Positions 1,202-10,282 of a stretch of 10,282 nt of DNA are shown piece after piece. Under the pieces are notes generated by a model. It had not been told where the DNA came from. It ran no database searches and was given only the letters and a program-made list of their open reading frames with translations. This DNA is from an uncultured Erythrobacteraceae bacterium (GTDB lineage: Bacteria; Pseudomonadota; Alphaproteobacteria; Sphingomonadales; Sphingomonadaceae). Within the stretch, counting starts at the first letter, position 1; every line of letters begins with the position of its first letter. Made by a program: the position numbers and the translations under genes. Location: positions 1 through 10,282 of the forward strand of contig CAMLQG010000103.1 of NCBI GenBank assembly GCA_946482075.1. Direction: 5' to 3'.

Positions 1202-1450
1202 TCAGGGCAGGATCGATATCGCCTGCCGCCATATCTCCCTCATCTCCCTGATCATCTGCTGTGTTTCCCTGGAGTACATGCCATGCTTCCAGGCATTGCG
1301 ATTACCCTTCGGCGCCCCGGTCGATAGCCCTCCGTGCAGCTTGCAGCGTTTCTTCCCCTTGATCGGCCACAATTGGCACGCCGTTCCCGAACGGGTCTTG
1401 GCCGAGCACCGCCGCAGCTGTTGCATGGGCTTGATCTCCACTTTTTCCAT
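1202..1450 (-). CDS. HGGxSTG domain protein, 82 aa (putative small zinc-binding protein)
   Basis: The protein contains HGGLSTGAPKGNRNAWKHG (residues 39-57), the hallmark of the HGGxSTG family. This is preceded by C15, C25, C36 and H39, spaced as a possible zinc site (C-x9-C-x10-C-x2-H). A basic, amphipathic helix follows to the end. The family is common in phages and genomic islands and its role is unsettled; nucleic-acid binding is a plausible inference from the Cys/His pattern and basic character. It is the last gene of the operon, and its first 50 codons overlap the previous gene in another frame. The ATG at 1450 has a G-rich stretch 3-10 bases upstream; the ATG at 1426 has a GGAG nine bases upstream and would give 74 aa while keeping all motifs. 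Confidence 0.85.
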   Translation of the reverse strand: MEKVEIKPMQQLRRCSAKTRSGTACQLWPIKGKKRCKLHGGLSTGAPKGNRNAWKHGMYSRETQQMIREMREIWRQAISILP

Positions 1451-2481: not shown

Positions 2482-2965
2482 GGGGTAGCTCCCACATCAG
2501 TAGCAAGCCGCTCGACACGAGAGCCAAGCCTGAACCACGATTCCACTGTTCCGGGACGCCCATGTGTGCCCACCGGGCGCGCCCGTCGACCAGCTTGAGG
2601 TTCCGGGCGCCCCGCAGGCGATCGGCAAGACCGCCCCAATAGGGCTTCACCGGAAGCACCCCGAAGAGATCGAGGCCGCTCCAATTGTCGCGTGCGGCTG
2701 GTTCACCGAACTTTTCGAAGATCCAGAACGCGTCTTCGCACAGGTTCCGCCAGCGCTGCCCCTCAATGCCTGCAACGGGGCGCCAAGGATCGAGACCGGC
2801 AAGTTGCACCCGCCATTCCCGTTGGCGCTCGCGCTGGGCCTTTTCCGAAATGCGGCACTCCGGCTCACCTCCGAAACCGCCGAAACTAGGTTCTGGTGGT
2901 TTCGGCGGTTCCTCGTGGGGGACGTTTTCCGCAATTCGCGCTTTCAGTTTGTCGAGGTAGCTCAT
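2471..2965 (-). CDS. Conserved hypothetical protein, 164 aa
   Basis: A polar, proline- and glycine-rich N-terminus (EPPKPPEPSFGGFGGEPECR, residues 19-38) precedes a predicted helical domain with WRVQLAGLDP (51-60), DNWSGLDLFGVLP (93-105) and YWGGLADRLRGARNLKLVDG (109-128). From memory, proteins with this combination are common in sphingomonad islands, directly downstream of DUF3987 genes, and have no assigned function. It starts in an ATGA overlap with the DUF3987 gene and continues the replication operon. No catalytic motif or membrane segment is visible. Confidence 0.8.
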   Translation of the reverse strand: MSYLDKLKARIAENVPHEEPPKPPEPSFGGFGGEPECRISEKAQRERQREWRVQLAGLDPWRPVAGIEGQRWRNLCEDAFWIFEKFGEPAARDNWSGLDLFGVLPVKPYWGGLADRLRGARNLKLVDGRARWAHMGVPEQWNRGSGLALVSSGLLLMWELPHAE

Positions 2966-4509
2966 TCGCCAAACTCCTTCGGATTGACGACAAACCGCGT
3001 GGTGGGGCGGCCACCAGACGGACCCGTGGGAATGGGGATGGATCGAACCCAGCCATATTCATCCAGCAGATCGAGTGCTTCTTTCACCCTCACCGGATCG
3101 TCACCCATCGGAGACCAGTTCTTGTGGGTCACGTCCCGGACGGTGAAGGACTTATCGAGCCTGCCGCTACGCAGCCCCCGAATGATGGCTTTCGCCCCAT
3201 CCACAGTGTTCACGCTGCCAGCATGGTAGATGCGCTGCGCATGGCTTTCGAGGAAGTCTGCCCAGGCCAATGCTGACAAGACCGCTACGTCCCCGACTGG
3301 ACCAGTTCCGCCGCTGGCGAGATGGTGGATCAGCGCCAGCGCCGGCACCAGCTTTCGGAACTTCGCGATGTGGCTTTCAAGTGCCGGGTGCAGTTCGTCG
3401 CTACGGATGCGGCCTTCCAGCGTCCGCCGCCATTCCTTGAAGCATTCAATCCCGTCGTCGCTGAAGCGCAGGAAGGGGCTGTCCCTGTCGAAGCGATCGA
3501 ACTCCGCCCCCACATCCTCAGCGCGAAGCCGGTCCAAACGATCGAACGCATCGAATGCGACCTGCCGATACTGGGCATCGGGTTCGCGATCGTGTTCGGT
3601 CCAGTCCGGCGACATGTCGGGCCATACCGTCATGCTGAAGCGCTGAAGCAGGCCGTCATCAGTGGAGTTGCCACCCATCACACCCCGGACATAGCCCTGC
3701 ATCAAGGCCGGCTGGGTTGAGCCGAGAACACTCAGCGTGACGGACGGCACGAACAGATTTGTGCCGCGCCCGATCCGGTCGAAGACATAGGATTCGCTGC
3801 CGTTCCATCCGGTCAGGTAGAACCCGCGCGCTTCGGAGCTGTCCTCGCGATCCAGCGCCCGGATCAGGGACATCAACTCGTCGCGATGGACCAGTAGGCC
3901 ATTTGTATTCTTGCGCAGGATCTCGCCCAATGCCTGATACGAGCCATCGTTGGTCTTGTACCGCCGTGCGGTGGGCTCTTCTTCTTTTGGAGAGATCGCC
4001 CCTGCTGTATCCGCCTTGGGGTTGTCCTTCAGCAGCTTCTTGAGTGCCGCTTTCTCCGCGTCACGCCGCAGCTCGCGCTCAATCTCGCCGTCCTCCCACT
4101 CTTCCTTCGCCTGCAGGAACGCATCATTCGCCATCGCCTCCAGCCGGGCGAGCGGTTTCAGCGCCGCGCCGACAGCGGGCGACTTCATCACGCCGGGCCG
4201 GCCGATGATGCAGCCCCAGAGATTGGGAACGACCGTCCAATCGTCCTGGCGCATAGGGCGGATACCAACCTTACGCCCGATCACGGCGCCGGCCGCGATC
4301 ATGGCAGGCACGGCGATAAACTCTGGTGGGGTTTGCATCCGCTCGCTGATGTCCTCCACCCACGGCTTGAATGCCGCTGGAAGCATGTCGCAATCAAATG
4401 CCTTTACCGGCAGAAGCCCGCCAGGCAGGGGCTTCGCAGTCGGCCAGATGTCGATATCCTGTCCGCTATCGAGAGCCTGTTGGAATGCATTGGCTGTGGC
4501 CGCGTTCAT
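2962..4509 (-). CDS. DUF3987 domain protein, 515 aa (putative replication ATPase/helicase-like)
   Basis: The protein matches the DUF3987 pattern by eye: an N-terminal helical region (FKPWVEDISERMQTPPEF, 47-64), a P-loop-like GRPGVMKSP (103-111), a Walker-B-like LLVHRDE (205-211), a sensor-like LGSTQP (262-267) and GLLQRF (286-291) with a possible arginine finger. Residues about 440-505 look like a winged-helix end. DUF3987 proteins sit beside primases in phages, plasmids and satellites, where they are thought to act in DNA replication. The P-loop is non-canonical: methionine replaces the glycine just before Lys109. A charged linker (about 134-185) follows the P-loop. The gene starts in an ATGA overlap with the primase gene upstream and ends in another with the 164-aa gene. 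Confidence 0.85.
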   Translation of the reverse strand: MNAATANAFQQALDSGQDIDIWPTAKPLPGGLLPVKAFDCDMLPAAFKPWVEDISERMQTPPEFIAVPAMIAAGAVIGRKVGIRPMRQDDWTVVPNLWGCIIGRPGVMKSPAVGAALKPLARLEAMANDAFLQAKEEWEDGEIERELRRDAEKAALKKLLKDNPKADTAGAISPKEEEPTARRYKTNDGSYQALGEILRKNTNGLLVHRDELMSLIRALDREDSSEARGFYLTGWNGSESYVFDRIGRGTNLFVPSVTLSVLGSTQPALMQGYVRGVMGGNSTDDGLLQRFSMTVWPDMSPDWTEHDREPDAQYRQVAFDAFDRLDRLRAEDVGAEFDRFDRDSPFLRFSDDGIECFKEWRRTLEGRIRSDELHPALESHIAKFRKLVPALALIHHLASGGTGPVGDVAVLSALAWADFLESHAQRIYHAGSVNTVDGAKAIIRGLRSGRLDKSFTVRDVTHKNWSPMGDDPVRVKEALDLLDEYGWVRSIPIPTGPSGGRPTTRFVVNPKEFGE

Positions 4510-5441
4510 ATCCGCGATCCTTTCATGAGAGCTTCGTTCCAGTCCTTCGCGTCGATCGGGAAGAACATTCGTGTGGAGAGACCGCGCTTGGCGAAGGCCG
4601 ATGCGGATTTGTTGGCCGCCGCGCGCCCGGCATCGTCATTGTCCCCGCCGACAGCGACAGACCGGACCATTTCGGGGAAGAGCATGGCGGGAAGCATCGA
4701 GGCGCCAGCGGCGACCCAGACGGCTTTGCCCAACTCTTGCTGGAGGCTCAGGCCATCTTCGAGGCCTTCACAGACCACGAGTGAAGCCGCTGGAGGCGAA
4801 AGGCGCACCGCACCGCCCGATACCCTGCCCAAACTCAGCTTCGGCTTGGGGACCGCCGCTTTGCCCGTGCCAGACTCGTTGAGATAGGTCCGCTGCATTC
4901 CGATGAATTGCCCATCGACAGATGACACTGCCGCCAGCAACACAGGATGTTGAGGCCCGGACTTGCCGTAACGAAGCGCAGTAAACCGAATGCTTTCCGG
5001 CATTGCGATGCGGATCGCCCGATGGTGGAGATAGCGTTCTGCCAAGGTACCGGGCGCTGGCTGCGCTGCATCCCAAATCGCCTTTGCTTCCTCCACACGA
5101 TTGCTGGCGTCGTCCGGGGGCGGTAGCGGGGCGTAATGTGTCGTCGGCAGATTACCGCCAGACAGCATTTCGCCCGCACCACGCAGATCGACACCATGCA
5201 ATCGCTGTACGAAATCCAGGACATCACCCCCGGCGCCACACCCGAAACAGTAGTACCGCTGGCCACCCTTGAAGATGGTGAAGCTGGGCGACTTCTCGTT
5301 GTGGAACGGGCAACAGGCTTTCCATTCGCTGCCTGCGCGCTTGAGGTCCACGACCGTGCCGACGACAGCGGGCAATGGGTTCTCCTGTTTTATCGTGTCG
5401 AGATCGAGGCGTGAGCGCGGTTCGCGTGCAATCGTCGTCAT
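4506..5441 (-). CDS. DnaG-like primase with CHC2 zinc finger and Toprim domain, 311 aa
   Basis: The N-terminus carries a CHC2-type zinc finger: CCPFHNEKSPSF (43-54) and YYCFGCGAGGDVLDFV (63-78), with ligands C44, H47, C65 and C68. A linker and an alpha/beta region lead to a Toprim domain with VCEGLEDGLS (223-232; acidic residue E225) and GGDNDDAG (265-272; D267 and D269 fit the DxD motif). This arrangement is typical of short primases of phages and mobile elements that make RNA primers on unwound DNA. It is about half the length of chromosomal DnaG and lacks a DnaB-interacting C-terminal domain. I chose the ATG at 5441 because it forms an ATGA overlap with the 130-aa gene; an in-frame ATG at 5462 is the alternative. 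The DUF3987 gene downstream is the likely helicase partner. Confidence 0.92.
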   Translation of the reverse strand: MTTIAREPRSRLDLDTIKQENPLPAVVGTVVDLKRAGSEWKACCPFHNEKSPSFTIFKGGQRYYCFGCGAGGDVLDFVQRLHGVDLRGAGEMLSGGNLPTTHYAPLPPPDDASNRVEEAKAIWDAAQPAPGTLAERYLHHRAIRIAMPESIRFTALRYGKSGPQHPVLLAAVSSVDGQFIGMQRTYLNESGTGKAAVPKPKLSLGRVSGGAVRLSPPAASLVVCEGLEDGLSLQQELGKAVWVAAGASMLPAMLFPEMVRSVAVGGDNDDAGRAAANKSASAFAKRGLSTRMFFPIDAKDWNEALMKGSRI

Positions 5442-5830
5442 GCGATGTCCCCCAGCTTGCACGGCGCATATTGCCCGAGCTGACCCAAAGCGAAGCGGAT
5501 AGCCTCATCCCGTTCGTGCGGACCAAATCTGCCGAGCGAACCGAATGAATCGCTAGAGCGGCTTTCGTGCAGAACTTCGTACCCACCGCCAGCGAGAGGG
5601 ATGACATGGATCAGTCCGTGTTCCGGCAGGTCCAACACGACGCCGGGTTCATCCTGCGAAATGCGACGAGCGCTGGAGCAGGCGTCCTGATACGCCCCCG
5701 GCTTTCCGACCATCATCGGGCCGGCGTCCCGGTTCCAGAACATCACGCACCAGTTACCCGAATACGCTTGCGCGACTGAGACGACTTCGGCACCGACAAG
5801 TGCCGCCAATGGCATGGCCATAACGCTCAT
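5438..5830 (-). CDS. Hypothetical protein, 130 aa
   Basis: I do not recognise this protein. Its first 85 residues look beta-rich, with alternating hydrophobic stretches (EVVSVAQAYSGNWCVMFW, 15-32, and HGLIHVIPLAGGGYEVLH, 71-88). The C-terminal part (104-122) looks like a helix, EAIRFALGQLG. There is no signal peptide or membrane helix. I chose the ATG at 5830 because it overlaps the stop of the small gene upstream (ATGA); ATGs at 5821 and further upstream are possible. It ends in an ATGA overlap with the primase gene, so its product is probably made at similar levels and may take part in replication or its control. Confidence 0.65.
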   Translation of the reverse strand: MSVMAMPLAALVGAEVVSVAQAYSGNWCVMFWNRDAGPMMVGKPGAYQDACSSARRISQDEPGVVLDLPEHGLIHVIPLAGGGYEVLHESRSSDSFGSLGRFGPHERDEAIRFALGQLGQYAPCKLGDIA

Positions 5831-6009: not shown

Positions 6010-6201
6010 TCACGCAGCCTCCGAGGTGGAGTGAATCACGCGATCAGCGATCCAGGCGCGGGCATCCTCGGGCCGGTAACGGACCTGTCGTCCGAGTTTC
6101 ACATATGGGCAGCCGCCCCCATACACGCGCTCTTTCTGCACGGTCGAAACCGAGCAGTCACGATACTCGGCATACTGCTGTTCGGTCCAAAGCGGTTCCA
6201 T
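6010..6201 (-). CDS. AlpA/MerR-like helix-turn-helix protein, 63 aa (putative excisionase/regulator)
   Basis: The sequence LWTEQQYAEYRDCSVSTVQK (4-23) is a helix-turn-helix of the HTH_17/AlpA type. It is followed by the characteristic wing CPYVKLGRQVRYRPEDARAW (31-50). Proteins of this family bind DNA at att sites or promoters; they promote excision by the partner tyrosine integrase and often regulate it. I chose the ATG at 6201 because AAGGAGG lies seven bases upstream; the longer frame to 6249 has no such site. It is the first gene of the replication operon and follows the integrase and the 221-aa gene on the same strand, so it may link excision with replication. Confidence 0.87.
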   Translation of the reverse strand: MEPLWTEQQYAEYRDCSVSTVQKERVYGGGCPYVKLGRQVRYRPEDARAWIADRVIHSTSEAA

Positions 6202-6222
6202 TCTCTTGCCTCCTTCCAATTG

Positions 6223-6236
6223 CCCGCAAGAGCGGG
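6223..6236 (-). promoter_or_regulatory. Short hairpin in the leader of the AlpA-like gene
   Basis: CCCGC (6223-6227) and GCGGG (6232-6236) form a 5-bp stem with a 4-base loop. It ends about 11 bases upstream of the AAGGAGG ribosome binding site of the AlpA-like gene. It could shape the 5' leader, but the stem is short and may be chance in GC-rich DNA. Confidence 0.3.
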
Positions 6237-6280
6237 TGGCTGGGTGCAAGTTGGAGCGAACACGGAAACGCTGCGCGGAA

Positions 6281-6994: not shown

Positions 6995-7086
6995 ATCGCC
7001 TCCGCGCGGGCGTCCGCGTATAGGAAGGGGCGGAAGGGCCGGGCGGAAACCGACCTTTTCGGGAGCTACCCTATCCACCCCGACGC

Positions 7087-8349
7087 TCAGCCCGATTTCG
7101 CGAGCGGAACCACGTTGTCAGCATCGACCAGTAGGGCAGCGAGAAAGCCCCCCCACTTGTCCATCGCTTCTCGCTTTTCGTCGCCGTAGTCATGGCGCTG
7201 ATAGACACGGGCAATACCCGACTTGGACCGGCCGGCCAGGCGGTTCTCGCAAGCCTCGATCACATCGCCGCTGATGCGAAGGCGCTGCATGTGCGTTGCC
7301 ATCGAGCGGCGCAGATCATGCAGCCGCCAGGGTTCTAGATCGGCTTCCTCGTCTTCCTTCTGCATCGCTTCCAACATCGCTTTGTCCAATGCCAGCTTGC
7401 ATTTGGAGAAACCGGATATCGGCGTGGTGCCCGTTGTCGAGAAGACCAGTCCTCGCTTCGGCCACTTATCGGCGCCTGCCAGAACATCCAGTTCCGCGAC
7501 GGCAAGGGCCGGCAGCGGAAGAAGGTTTTCAACGCCGTTCTTAGCCCGCGCGGCTGGCACCAGCCATTCCCGTCGAGCGCGGTTCAATTCGCGCCAGTCG
7601 AGTCCTGACATCTCATTCCGGCGCTGACCTGTGATAGCCAGCAGCCGGACGAACGATCCGAAGGGCTTGGGCAGACCTTCCGACGCCGAGAACATCAGCT
7701 TCAGTTCCGCATCGTCCAGAACGCGATCACGGCTTTCCACGGCTGGTGGAGCCTCAATCCCCTCCATTGGATTTGTCGCGATATCGCCACGGCCGACAGC
7801 CCAGCGCAGCATCCGGCGGAGAATTGCGTATGAATTGCGGCGAACGGCTGGCTGGCTCTTCGGGATCTTGTCCAGGAGGCGCGTTAGATCGCCACGGGTG
7901 AGCGAGGGCAGGGGAGTGTCCCCCAGCTCAGGCTTCAGGTGCAGGCGCACGACGGTTTCCGCGAAGCCGTAGGATCGATCCTTCCAATTGCCCTTCACCT
8001 CCGTTCTCAGGAAGCGATCGGCATAGACGTTGAAGGCCAGTTCCGAAGCCTCCAGACGCATGCGCTTCTTCTCGGTCGCGGGATCAGTCCCCTGTGCCAC
8101 CATCCGCATAAGCCGTTCGGCTTCCGTGCGGGCGCTGTCAGGGGTCCATGTTCCCATCGGGCCGATCGTGAAACGCTTTGTCTTGCCAGCACGGCCACCA
8201 TGCATGCGATACTGGATCAGAAACACGGCCTTCCCGGCTGGCGTTCGCTTCACACCAAAGCCCTTGCAATCAGTATCCCACAGGAAGGCGTCTGAAGGCC
8301 CAGCCTTGAGGGCGTCAACAGATCGCTTCGTGATTTTCGCGCTCGCCAT
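7087..8349 (-). CDS. Tyrosine-type site-specific integrase, 420 aa
   Basis: It catalyses integration and, with a recombination directionality factor, excision of the element at its att site. The N-terminus (1-95) is an arm-binding DUF4102-type domain (MASAKITKRSVDALK, then GFGVKRTPAGKAVFLIQYR). A core-binding SAM-like region (about 100-190) and the catalytic domain follow, with TGQRRNE (R243), RAKNG (probable K270), LHDLRRS (H344, R347) and the nucleophile region VYQRHDYGDEK (Y388). The second active-site histidine expected near 'LNH' is Arg370 here (CENRLAG). I chose the ATG at 8349 because TGGAG lies seven bases upstream; the frame also runs to 8376. It is transcribed away from the tRNA half at 8499-8543, its likely att site. 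Confidence 0.95.
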   Translation of the reverse strand: MASAKITKRSVDALKAGPSDAFLWDTDCKGFGVKRTPAGKAVFLIQYRMHGGRAGKTKRFTIGPMGTWTPDSARTEAERLMRMVAQGTDPATEKKRMRLEASELAFNVYADRFLRTEVKGNWKDRSYGFAETVVRLHLKPELGDTPLPSLTRGDLTRLLDKIPKSQPAVRRNSYAILRRMLRWAVGRGDIATNPMEGIEAPPAVESRDRVLDDAELKLMFSASEGLPKPFGSFVRLLAITGQRRNEMSGLDWRELNRARREWLVPAARAKNGVENLLPLPALAVAELDVLAGADKWPKRGLVFSTTGTTPISGFSKCKLALDKAMLEAMQKEDEEADLEPWRLHDLRRSMATHMQRLRISGDVIEACENRLAGRSKSGIARVYQRHDYGDEKREAMDKWGGFLAALLVDADNVVPLAKSG

Positions 8350-8380
8350 GTGATTGCTCCAGTAACCACCTAGCAATCAC
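8350..8380 (-). promoter_or_regulatory. Inverted repeat in the integrase leader
   Basis: On the minus strand GTGATTGCT (8380-8372) and AGCAATCAC (8358-8350) form a perfect 9-bp stem with a 13-base loop. The stem ends immediately before the integrase ATG (8349). The integrase ribosome binding site (TGGAG) lies at the loop/stem border, so folding could hide it. It could equally be an operator for a dimeric repressor. Confidence 0.6.
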
Positions 8381-8392
8381 CTTAAATCCAAG

Positions 8393-8484
8393 TCGGTGCA
8401 AAACCAAGAAAGAACATGCAAGGAACAGTGGCGGTATAGCGTACTCTGTGGATAGCCATTGAAACCCACTGCGACTCGGTGCAA
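8393..8484 (+). repeat. Pair of direct repeats flanking the integrase promoter region (possible arm-type sites)
   Basis: TCGGTGCAA occurs at 8393-8401 and 8476-8484, within a wider match (A-x-TCGGTGCAA). The copies are 83 bp apart, close to eight helical turns, between the integrase gene and the tRNA half. Short direct repeats beside a tRNA core are typical arm-binding sites of tyrosine integrases, but this is inferred from position only. Confidence 0.45.
8435..8464 (-). promoter_or_regulatory. Weak candidate promoter of the integrase gene
   Basis: On the minus strand TTTCAA (8464-8459) and GCTATA (8440-8435) are separated by 18 bases and lie upstream of the integrase leader. The match to the -35/-10 consensus is poor; it is only the best candidate I see in this 149-bp non-coding stretch. 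Confidence 0.2.
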
Positions 8485-8498
8485 GTCAGACCACCAAA

Positions 8499-8543
8499 CT
8501 ACGAATCTGAGGGTCGGACGTTCGAATCGTTCCGGGCGCGCCA
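8499..8543 (+). tRNA. 3' half of tRNA-Arg(ACG): attachment site (partial, not a functional tRNA)
   Basis: The 45 bases match tRNA positions 32-76 exactly in layout. They comprise anticodon loop CTACGAA (8499-8505, anticodon ACG at 8501-8503), 3' anticodon stem TCTGA, a 5-base variable loop, T stem GGACG/CGTTC (one G-U pair) around loop TTCGAAT, acceptor strand CGGGCGC, discriminator G and encoded CCA (8541-8543). The 5' half is missing: the five bases before the loop (CCAAA) pair only partly with TCTGA, and no GCGCCCG acceptor strand occurs upstream. This is what an integrase-made att site looks like when it uses the anticodon loop and the 3' half of a tRNA gene. The reconstituted tRNA gene is expected at the other end of the element. 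Confidence 0.88.
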
Positions 8544-10196
8544 TTTCGGTTCAAAACCACGAACGCCTAGCACCGCCGCCTCTACGCCAGAGGCGGCGGT
8601 GAGGGTGCGGAGCAGCTCGCTCCGCAAGCCGCGAATGCGAACCTCCGTCTTGCTCACCACCTCGACGCGCTGGGCGACCGCCCGGATATGATCGCGCGCG
8701 AATGACCCATCACCCTTCCGCAGCTTCCTGCGCGCCGCCATCGCAAAGGCCCGCAGGCTTTCGGGCGTGATGGCCGGTCCGATCTTCTCGATATGCGCCA
8801 CCGCCCGCTCGGCGTCGCCCCTGGCCTGGTCGCGCGTCGCCGTCAGCTCCGCGATCCGATCCTTGAGCGACGGATCGCTTACGTCGATCACGCCATTCTC
8901 GATCGCGTTATAGAGCCGCTTGAGCTTCGCTTCCGCCTCGGTCGCGCGGCGCTCCAGATCAGCGACATGGAGCCGCCGCTGATCCACCCATTCGTCGCGG
9001 CGTTCGAGGATTTGATCCATCATCTCCTCAAGCCGCTTCGGATCGAGCAGCCGCCACTCCAGATGCCCGACCACGGCTTCGTTCAGCCGATCCATCGGAA
9101 CCGTAATGCCGGGGCAGCCCTTCGCGCCCTGCCGCGCCTTCGTGGAGCAGGTGTAATAGCGATACTCGCGGCCGACGCTGCTAGTGCCGGTGCGCAGGGT
9201 CATCGCCCCGCCGCAGCACGCGCAGAAGCAGATGCCCGTGAGCAGCGTTGGCCCCCCAACGGCCATCGGCGGCATCATCTTCGGGCTGCGCGCCTTGAGC
9301 GACCGCTGCACAGCCTCGAACTCCGCCTCCGAGACGATGGCGGGCACTTCCATGATGGCGTGCTCGCTTTCGGGCTTGGGGGCCTTGGTGCGATAGTCCC
9401 GATAGTTGAACTTGTGCTGGCCGATATAGGTAGTGCGGGTGAGCACCTGATGCACGGCTCCAAGCCCCCAGCGCCCGCCGTCGCGGGTGCGGGTGTTGTT
9501 GTCGTTGAGCCAGGTCGCGATGGCCTTGAGGCCCATCGGCCCGCTATCATCGACGCCGTTCAGCGCCATCCGGTAGATGCGCCGCACGGTCTCGGCCTGG
9601 ATCGGGTCGATCTCCAGCTTCTTCTTGACCTTCGCGCCGCGGTGCCCGGCCTCGACGATCCGATAGCCGATGGGCGCGCGCGCGCCGTTCCAGAAGCCCT
9701 GGCGCGCGTTCTCCTTCATCGACCGCAGAGTATGCTTGCCGTTCTCCTTCGACTGATATTCGTCGAACAACGTCATGATCTGGCGCATCATCACGCTCAT
9801 CGGATCGTCGCCCAAATCCTGCGTGATCGAGATCAACCGCACGCCGTTCTTCGCCAGCTTGCGGACGTAGAACTCGAACTGGAACTGGTCGCGGAAGAAG
9901 CGCGAGAAACTGTGGACCAGGATCACGTTGAATGGCGACGGCTTCTGCATCGCCGCGTCGATCATCGCCTGAAACGCCGGCCGACGATCATCGGTCGCGG
10001 TATTGCCCGGTTCGACGAACTCGGCCGCGATCTCCCAGCTGCGCGACAGGCAATAGCCTTCGATCTGCCGGCGCTGGTCGGGGATCGACAGGTCGCTCTC
10101 GGCCTGGCGGCCGGTGGAGACGCGCAGATAGAGCGCGGTGCGGGCCATCGCCATAACCGGCGAGGTGTCCTCGACGCGAAGGACGGCGTCGGTCAT
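8499..10196 (-). CDS. Large serine recombinase with zinc ribbon, 565 aa
   Basis: The N-terminal resolvase domain shows ALYLRVSTGRQ (21-31; nucleophile S27, R25), DRRPAFQAMI (70-79) and HSFSRFFRD (95-103; R99, R102). The recombinase domain spans about 170-310, including GARAPIGYRIV (171-181). The zinc ribbon has C325, C328, C350 and C361. A long coiled coil follows at about 385-470. Such enzymes move elements by serine-mediated recombination. The ATG at 10196 has AAGGA ten bases upstream; ATGs at 10154 and 10148 still precede the catalytic serine. The tail is odd: residues 552-565 and the TAG stop are the antisense of the tRNA-Arg half. The gene is clearly GC-richer than the integrase side, suggesting a different origin. 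It could be the integrase of a second element or a remnant of one. Confidence 0.92.
   Translation of the reverse strand: MTDAVLRVEDTSPVMAMARTALYLRVSTGRQAESDLSIPDQRRQIEGYCLSRSWEIAAEFVEPGNTATDDRRPAFQAMIDAAMQKPSPFNVILVHSFSRFFRDQFQFEFYVRKLAKNGVRLISITQDLGDDPMSVMMRQIMTLFDEYQSKENGKHTLRSMKENARQGFWNGARAPIGYRIVEAGHRGAKVKKKLEIDPIQAETVRRIYRMALNGVDDSGPMGLKAIATWLNDNNTRTRDGGRWGLGAVHQVLTRTTYIGQHKFNYRDYRTKAPKPESEHAIMEVPAIVSEAEFEAVQRSLKARSPKMMPPMAVGGPTLLTGICFCACCGGAMTLRTGTSSVGREYRYYTCSTKARQGAKGCPGITVPMDRLNEAVVGHLEWRLLDPKRLEEMMDQILERRDEWVDQRRLHVADLERRATEAEAKLKRLYNAIENGVIDVSDPSLKDRIAELTATRDQARGDAERAVAHIEKIGPAITPESLRAFAMAARRKLRKGDGSFARDHIRAVAQRVEVVSKTEVRIRGLRSELLRTLTAASGVEAAVLGVRGFEPKWRARNDSNVRPSDS
8571..8601. 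repeat. Perfect 13-bp hairpin inside the 3' end of the serine recombinase gene
   Basis: CACCGCCGCCTCT (8571-8583) and AGAGGCGGCGGTG (8589-8601) pair perfectly around a 5-base loop, 28 bp from the tRNA end. It lies within codons for about residues 532-542. No T run follows on either strand, so it is not a standard terminator. It could be a recombinase or att-associated structure, or a by-product of GC-rich coding. Confidence 0.6.
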
Positions 10197-10214
10197 GGCA
10201 TGAACATCCTTATC

Positions 10215-10282
10215 TCACGGCAAGGGTCCGAACAGGTCGTCCAGCTCCTTGCGCAAATGGCCTTCGATGACGCGCAACTCGG
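10215..10282 (-). CDS. Hypothetical protein, C-terminal end only (cut by window edge)
   Basis: The minus strand is open from the window edge to a TGA at 10217-10215 and gives 22 residues, ELRVIEGHLRKELDDLFGPL then P. The end is charged and probably helical. It stops 18 bases before the serine recombinase ATG, and that gap holds the recombinase's AAGGA ribosome binding site, so the two are probably one transcript. The family cannot be identified. DUF2924 genes often precede such recombinases, but this tail does not resemble what I remember of them. Confidence 0.5.
   Translation of the reverse strand, partial: ELRVIEGHLRKELDDLFGPLP

Follow-up and report, generated by a model that had tools for sequence, protein, structure and literature searches.

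A displaced tRNA-Arg half at the probable junction of two mobile elements with unrelated recombinases

How does the 3′ half of a tRNA-Arg(ACG) gene come to lie, without its 5′ half, between a tyrosine integrase and a serine recombinase? The question is raised by a stretch of 10,282 nucleotides from an uncultured Erythrobacteraceae bacterium, referred to here as the window. An original prediction, made from the letters alone, held that two elements lie in tandem at one tRNA-Arg gene and that each was brought in by its own, chemically unrelated enzyme. On the basis of comparisons with relatives of both recombinases, we conclude with high confidence that two mobile elements meet in the window at a single tRNA-Arg(ACG) gene, one dependent on serine and the other on tyrosine chemistry.

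A tRNA half between two recombinase genes

The 45-base block at the centre of this question is identical to bases 33–77 of the 77-nt intact tRNA-Arg(ACG) of a relative, which confirms the prediction that it comprises tRNA positions 32–76, including an encoded CCA, without a 5′ half. The base to its left (8498) also matches, extending the identity to 46/46 bases. A search of both strands of the window for the 5′ half gave no stretch of at least 12 bases, and ARAGORN detected no whole tRNA in it. The 46-base stretch, as tRNA or as displaced half, recurs exactly in the genomes of 7 of 15 relatives and with up to 3 mismatches in 10 of the 15; given this recurrence, it is not a chance match. The flanking genes were also predicted correctly, with Pfam support for both: a tyrosine integrase lies to the left and reads away from the block, and a serine recombinase lies to the right and reads into it (Table 1). 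In the tandem explanation, which we consider very probable as a whole, the block is both the distal att site of the left element and the tRNA-side att site of the right element. We also observed a 23-base near-repeat (83%) between 8388–8410, in the probable arm region, and 8541–8563, at the end of the serine element; by eye, its TCGGTGCAA recurs near 8475.

Table 1 Features of the window and the evidence for each
Feature	Position	Strand	Evidence
Terminase-small-subunit-like short ORF (weak match)	1202..1450	-	PHROG 1889, E 9e-9
DUF3987 helicase-like protein	2962..4509	-	Profile matches
Primase-like protein	4506..5462	-	CHC2 zinc finger, DUF7146, Toprim
AlpA-like HTH protein	6010..6249	-	PF12728 below cut-off; PHROG 66 excisionase/regulator
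int-alpA RNA (Rfam RF02996)	7014..7081	-	38.9 bits (gathering 35.8)
Tyrosine integrase	7087..8376	-	Pfam Arm-DNA-bind_3 and Phage_integrase; ATG at 8349 a possible start
End of left element, from integrase start to tRNA half; probable arm-site region	8377..8498	.	Position and the 146–212 bp spacing in 8 relatives
Displaced 3′ half of tRNA-Arg(ACG)	8499..8543	+	Positions 32–76 with encoded CCA; identity to intact tRNA, like halves in relatives
Large serine recombinase, 565 aa	8499..10196	-	Pfam Resolvase, Recombinase and Zn_ribbon_recom; PHROG 95 integrase
Encoded CCA (TGG in antisense), crossover region of serine recombinase	8541..8543	+	Junctions in four genomes, of which three have near-identical elements in different tRNAs, and empty site; exact dinucleotide presumptive
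tRNA-side end of serine element, extending past the window	8544..10282	.	Conserved TTTGAACCGAAA beside TGG in relatives
Perfect 13-bp inverted repeat with 5-base loop, in 3′ coding end of recombinase just past CCA	8571..8601	.	

Tyrosine integrases that target tRNA genes are known to cross over in the anticodon loop, and the left element has the arrangement of a tRNA-targeting island, in that its integrase adjoins a tRNA fragment that ends at this loop. Satellites of the PICI type are defined by an integrase, AlpA, a primase or replication module and a terminase small subunit, without structural genes. As far as the window edge, which cuts the element, the left element encodes an integrase, an int-alpA RNA, an AlpA-like protein, a primase, a helicase and a weak match to a terminase small subunit, so that in gene content it appears satellite- or prophage-like. 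Relatives of the integrase (E ≤ 1e-60) were found in 43 of 296 surveyed genomes, and 30 loci were examined. At 8 of these, a tRNA 3′ half that ends at or near the anticodon loop is located 146–212 bp before the inferred start of the integrase, and two of the eight halves belong to tRNA-Arg(ACG) (L245 and L247); a pattern search of 700 bp at the other 22 loci found no half. An integrase beside the distal half, which the original prediction had called the less common layout, is thus recurrent for this integrase group. Among the viral_contigs sequences, no relative of the window's integrase was confirmed.

Serine elements at the CCA ends of tRNA genes

Serine integrases are usually found in protein genes or intergenic DNA. 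The recombinase of the window has the domain order of large serine recombinases—an N-terminal resolvase domain followed by Recombinase and zinc-ribbon domains (Pfam)—and its activity is predicted. Residue S27 of the motif YLRVST, which we take to be the catalytic serine, is invariant across 37 aligned recombinase proteins. The last 14 codons and the TAG stop of the open reading frame are exactly the tRNA half read in antisense, and the stop codon (8499–8501) falls within the anticodon loop. Residues 530–565 have low confidence in an AlphaFold2 model (mean pLDDT 72, pTM 0.41), compatible with a loose tail.

The C terminus of most of the recombinase relatives listed is really host tRNA sequence. 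We read the best 80 of the 104 relatives found in a scan of species genomes, and in 62 of them an intact tRNA lies with its CCA end directly against the recombinase gene: 57 for Arg (ACG 22, CCG 20, CCT 8 and TCT 7), 3 for Thr and 2 for Leu. The 18 exceptions, sorted by eye, comprise 11 loci with cut or degraded tRNA pieces (L029, L031, L037, L039, L055, L060, L061, L063, L067, L074 and L079), two that end at a contig edge (L043 and L053), two in which an intact tRNA lies 53 bases (L049) or 9 bases (L080) beyond the expected spot, and three with no recognisable tRNA at the recombinase end (L017, L046 and L059). A search of 396 Sphingomonadales genomes for the element-end pattern, a sample that partly overlaps the genomes of the first set, yielded 18 matches, spread over 15 genomes; of these matches, 16 abut intact tRNAs, one abuts a cut tRNA-Arg (kind assigned by eye) and one has no tRNA. 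A single genome (G006) carries three copies of the serine element at three tRNA-Arg genes. Cultured carriers include Sphingomonas trueperi DSM 7225, with three copies in its genome. At one of the cut tRNAs (L037, 11645–12915), an intact tRNA-Arg(TCT) is present just 1.2 kb further on, and the one ORF tested between the two had no integrase match.

Plasmids were also searched with the window DNA, which gave short matches to the recombinase and tRNA region in three records. Recombinase relatives with around 60% identity are present on plasmids of Enterobacter, Klebsiella and Brevundimonas (L221, L222 and L223), with adjacent trb genes in both enterobacterial records and resistance genes close by in those of Enterobacter and Brevundimonas.

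The ends of the serine element were defined from relatives. Records of Pacificimonas, Enterovirga and Prosthecomicrobium (L010, L012 and L014) have in common a 44.2-kb element that is over 99.9% identical and that sits in tRNA-Arg genes with the anticodons TCT, CCG and ACG, respectively. On the tRNA side, this element has TTTGAACCGAAA and then TGG (CCA backwards); the far side starts with TGG[C/T]GCCCCG...GATAAACATAACGAATA, beside a different flank. Because the ends share TGGYGC only, there is no second tRNA half at the far end, and the further tRNA copy that the original prediction sought to the right of the window is not to be expected. It had also proposed a comparison with related genomes lacking one or both elements. 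In one genome without the serine element (G104), which is of the same genus as the element-bearing G005, the far flank and the tRNA side of G005 join directly at TGG, with 95% identity over 1.5 kb of the far-end flank and 96% on the tRNA side. A terminator-like hairpin and T run that belong to the tRNA are present in G104 and have been moved around 46 kb away in G005.

These junctions and the empty site describe an insertion without long repeats, the ends of which share TGGYGC, as is characteristic of serine-integrase sites. The fourth base of the core matches the right-side tRNA (for example, T for a Leu or Thr tRNA), which points to an exchange within TGG. Judged from these junctions, the serine element appears to cross over in the encoded CCA, with the exact point presumptive, and it leaves the tRNA complete. 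Just inside this end of the window's element is the hairpin at 8571–8601; a similar stem is present, by eye, in 24 of the 25 printed trailers of relatives, of 56 distinct trailers. It was considered as a terminator for the tRNA, and 8300–8750 contains no terminator-like match; it could stand in for the tRNA terminator that the serine element displaces.

Only 86 bases past the recombinase lie within the window, and the gene content of the family was read from a relative, G008, whose element has genes for a relaxase/DUF3363 protein, a coupling protein (T4SS-DNA_transf), TrbE-like, TrbL, TrbI, CagX and ParB-like proteins. The family thus carries conjugation genes, with transfer predicted. By homology, the element of the window probably belongs to this Trb-type conjugative family, and a conjugative body would be expected to the right of the window. 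The outermost 5.2 kb of the G008 element encode a SIR2-type Argonaute-associated protein and a short prokaryotic Argonaute. Additional far-end (attP′-like) sites occur in rows, 4–10 kb apart, in L087 (7506–12732) and L138 (2068, 7296 and 11808; G028:C16), and in 7 of the 39 distinct flank/end pairs the far-end site is preceded by a shared motif ending in CGGCGG[T/A]A.. in place of a recombinase end. The rows look as if cassettes without a recombinase, each with its own right end, had been stacked; two stacked cassettes carry genes for SIR2-associated and short Argonaute proteins. Over 9.36 kb, the serine element and its tRNA are 100% identical between a Sphingomonas record (L001, 2372–11732) and a Caulobacter record (L005, 19–9379), which suggests either recent transfer from one order to another or contamination of one record.

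The protein tail encoded at the far end

All 28 distinct kinds of far end are open in the frame of the recombinase, and 26 of the 28 stop at codon 19, with the tail consensus W[RC]PxxDKHNEYxSPFxL[LP] followed by the stop. The 28 kinds derive from 51 matches, in which some places are counted twice and 39 flank/end pairs are distinct. Two loci (L109 and L136), which were chance matches outside elements, were excluded ahead of the first tail count; for the second count, only ends with GG and GC at the core positions were accepted.

The far ends contain two conserved blocks. Information per position is 1.86 bits at positions 16–33, 1.47 bits at 37–57 and 0.64 bits at 58–70, just past the stop. Of the two, the first probably serves as a DNA site. 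As DNA, GATAAACATAACGAATA hardly varies. The second block looks coding: in codons 12–18 the third positions are the most variable (1.07 bits versus 1.42 and 1.52), and one far end has an in-frame CTA expansion ahead of the stop. When alignment columns were shuffled, 31–33 of 1000 shuffles reached the observed synonymous change for columns 31–54/57 (codons 11–18/19); the test is suggestive only, because 83 and 153 of 1000 did so for two other column ranges.

A conserved in-frame tail at the far ends implies that integration should swap the C terminus of the recombinase. In the circular form, the enzyme would end with the element-encoded tail W[RC]PxxDKHNEYxSPFxLL, and insertion would replace this tail by an antisense read of the host tRNA, stop codon included. 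Such a swap would alter the stability or direction of the enzyme, for example, if the lost tail served degradation or partner binding. A tyrosine element that arrives later would keep the stop of the recombinase, because exactly those 45 bases stay beside it. That attP is located within the terminal part of the recombinase gene, and that integration acts as a built-in protein switch that locks the element in, is a tentative proposal that we regard as rather doubtful.

We lean towards a plainer explanation, in which the attP-side tail owes its conservation solely to DNA recognition, its frame is open by chance and the swap has no function. The near-invariance of GATAAACATAACGAATA at the DNA level agrees with it, and so do the protein records: none of the best 120 of 4901 homologous proteins has the attP tail, 112 have the antisense-tRNA signature DSN and 8 have neither. 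The absence of the attP tail from these homologues is also expected if assemblies contain integrated forms. Incidental frames fit less well with 28 open ends that mostly share one stop codon, with conservation that falls right past this stop, with the in-frame expansion or with the excess of synonymous change (around 3% of shuffles for two column ranges, and 8% and 15% for the two others). Junctions of a circular form or of a serine–serine tandem were sought as well; none of 6 matches in a pattern search of viral_contigs continued into the far-end motif, and none was found among the 18 matches in the 396 Sphingomonadales genomes.

Tandems in relatives and in known systems

The arrangement proposed for the window—two elements at one tRNA-Arg gene, with unrelated recombinases—is found among relatives and is seen in full in one of them. 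In a Brevundimonas genome (G001, locus L083), an intact tRNA-Arg(ACG) at 830–906 is followed 16.3 kb on by a 46-base half at 17214 and then by the serine recombinase, and an integrase (15872–17098, minus strand) has the same place and direction as that of the window, next to the half and pointing away from it. In G003 (L084 and L085), the intact tRNA and the half, which is beside the recombinase, are 28.9 kb apart; the ORF tested next to this half (L067) is not a recognised integrase. The original prediction could have failed on an intact tRNA with a different 3′ half or on a recombinase side made of ordinary chromosome. Neither was found in G001 or G003: the 3′ half of the intact tRNA agrees in both, and in this family the recombinase side consists of inserted DNA. 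The tyrosine element of L083 contains, by eye, restriction- or defence-like genes (1268–10615), such as a DNA methyltransferase and a short-patch-repair-like endonuclease.

Partial views of the same junction are provided by L029, L031 and L039, in which Arm-DNA-bind_3 integrases read away from a half beside the recombinase (the proteins of L029 and L039 have no Phage_integrase domain match at 0.001), and by L055, in which the integrase is oriented the opposite way. One IMG/VR contig (L082) has phage-like genes (by eye), a half and the start of a recombinase match, and another (L081) has a half with no recombinase beside it. Identity between the window's integrase and the L083 integrase is 28%. 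Against the L029 and L039 integrases, which share 55% identity, BLAST gives it no match at E up to 1, so the same place has been reached by three integrases of the tyrosine type that are very different from one another.

This diversity bears on whether the window might show a single composite element that carries two recombinases and moves as one unit. Conjugative transfer is reported for CIME–ICE tandems, and such movement is not excluded for other composites (PMC5704250). We consider a composite unlikely here, because the tyrosine neighbours differ while the recombinase ends stay similar to that of the window (84–85% DNA identity in L029 and L031, and 87% protein identity in L039), and because 62 of the 80 relatives have an intact tRNA next to the serine element, with nothing inserted between. 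Seen in the window alone, an antisense gene end inside a tRNA could also be an annotation accident, with only the left element mobile and the serine recombinase a long-standing resident whose end overlaps the tRNA by chance. This is very improbable given the 44.2-kb element, which is near-identical in three genera and occupies a different tRNA-Arg gene in each, the precise empty site in G104 and the three copies in G006.

The half could instead be the decayed remnant of a tRNA that was broken by a deletion, and not an att site, as the degraded tRNA pieces in some relatives (for example, L074 and L055) might suggest. We give this little credence, because the half matches intact tRNA-Arg(ACG) at every one of 46 bases and stops at the anticodon loop, like those in L029, L031, L039 and L067. 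The points that weigh against the tandem overall are the 18 of 80 recombinase relatives without an intact tRNA at the exact spot, the 22 of 30 integrase relatives without a half, the unrecognised ORF of L067 and the reversed integrase of L055.

For the tandem of two elements, which we favour, the following model may be drawn. The serine recombinase would insert a Trb-type element at the encoded CCA of tRNA-Arg, and the tRNA would stay complete. The tyrosine element would have entered the tRNA at the anticodon loop and restored it with its own 3′ half, displacing the old 3′ half to 8499–8543; a restored, intact tRNA-Arg(ACG) would then be located to the left of the window, at a position such as that seen in L083. 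As the crossover points differ, both elements can use one gene in either order. The tyrosine element could enter second because the serine element leaves the tRNA whole, and the serine element could enter second because the displaced half retains the CCA, acceptor and T-arm sequence; the structure is compatible with either having been first. Two unrelated enzymes would split one gene between two crossover points. A family that reads tRNA-Arg ends in many bacterial genera and leaves them uncut is useful for element finding and as a multi-site integration tool, and searches that need a second tRNA fragment will miss the ends of such serine elements. The conserved attP-encoded tail predicts that integration rewrites the C terminus of the integrase.

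Tandem accretion of ICEs, IMEs and CIMEs at tRNA genes is already known (PMC5704250). Those tandems are like ours in their site-specific stacking, including at the 3′ ends of tRNA genes, and in integrases that are often distantly related; here, by contrast, serine is paired with tyrosine chemistry, the two enzymes use different points of one gene and the serine element leaves the tRNA uncut. The tRNA and tmRNA islands of Islander, which are the work of tyrosine integrases (PMC4383910), resemble the left element in the split tRNA, the restored copy and the displaced fragment that marks the end, and differ in that the integrase of the window is at the displaced-fragment end. Prophage Pami6 of Paracoccus has a serine recombinase and a predicted site in tRNA-Met (PMC6536676), and so shares with the present family a serine recombinase with a predicted tRNA-gene site in an alphaproteobacterium; it is one case at tRNA-Met, whereas the family described here uses four kinds of tRNA-Arg as well as Thr and Leu tRNAs and carries conjugation genes. 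The vcr islands of Dehalococcoides (PMC3146451) also lie at a structural RNA gene, the tmRNA, and the paper uses the term serine recombinase; these islands are from another phylum and have a single tmRNA target. Among the matches listed in searches of one open-access library, we found no serine-recombinase family that sits at the CCA ends of tRNA-Arg genes and ends its own gene inside the tRNA, and no integrase tail that is swapped with antisense tRNA. The nearest known logic to the proposed tail swap appears, by analogy, to be that of mycobacteriophage BPs, in which attP lies inside a gene and integration strips an ssrA-like degradation tag from the repressor (PMC4557955). Integration changes the C terminus of a protein in BPs, as it would here; there a repressor is truncated, whereas here the recombinase would gain a predicted tail read from the tRNA.
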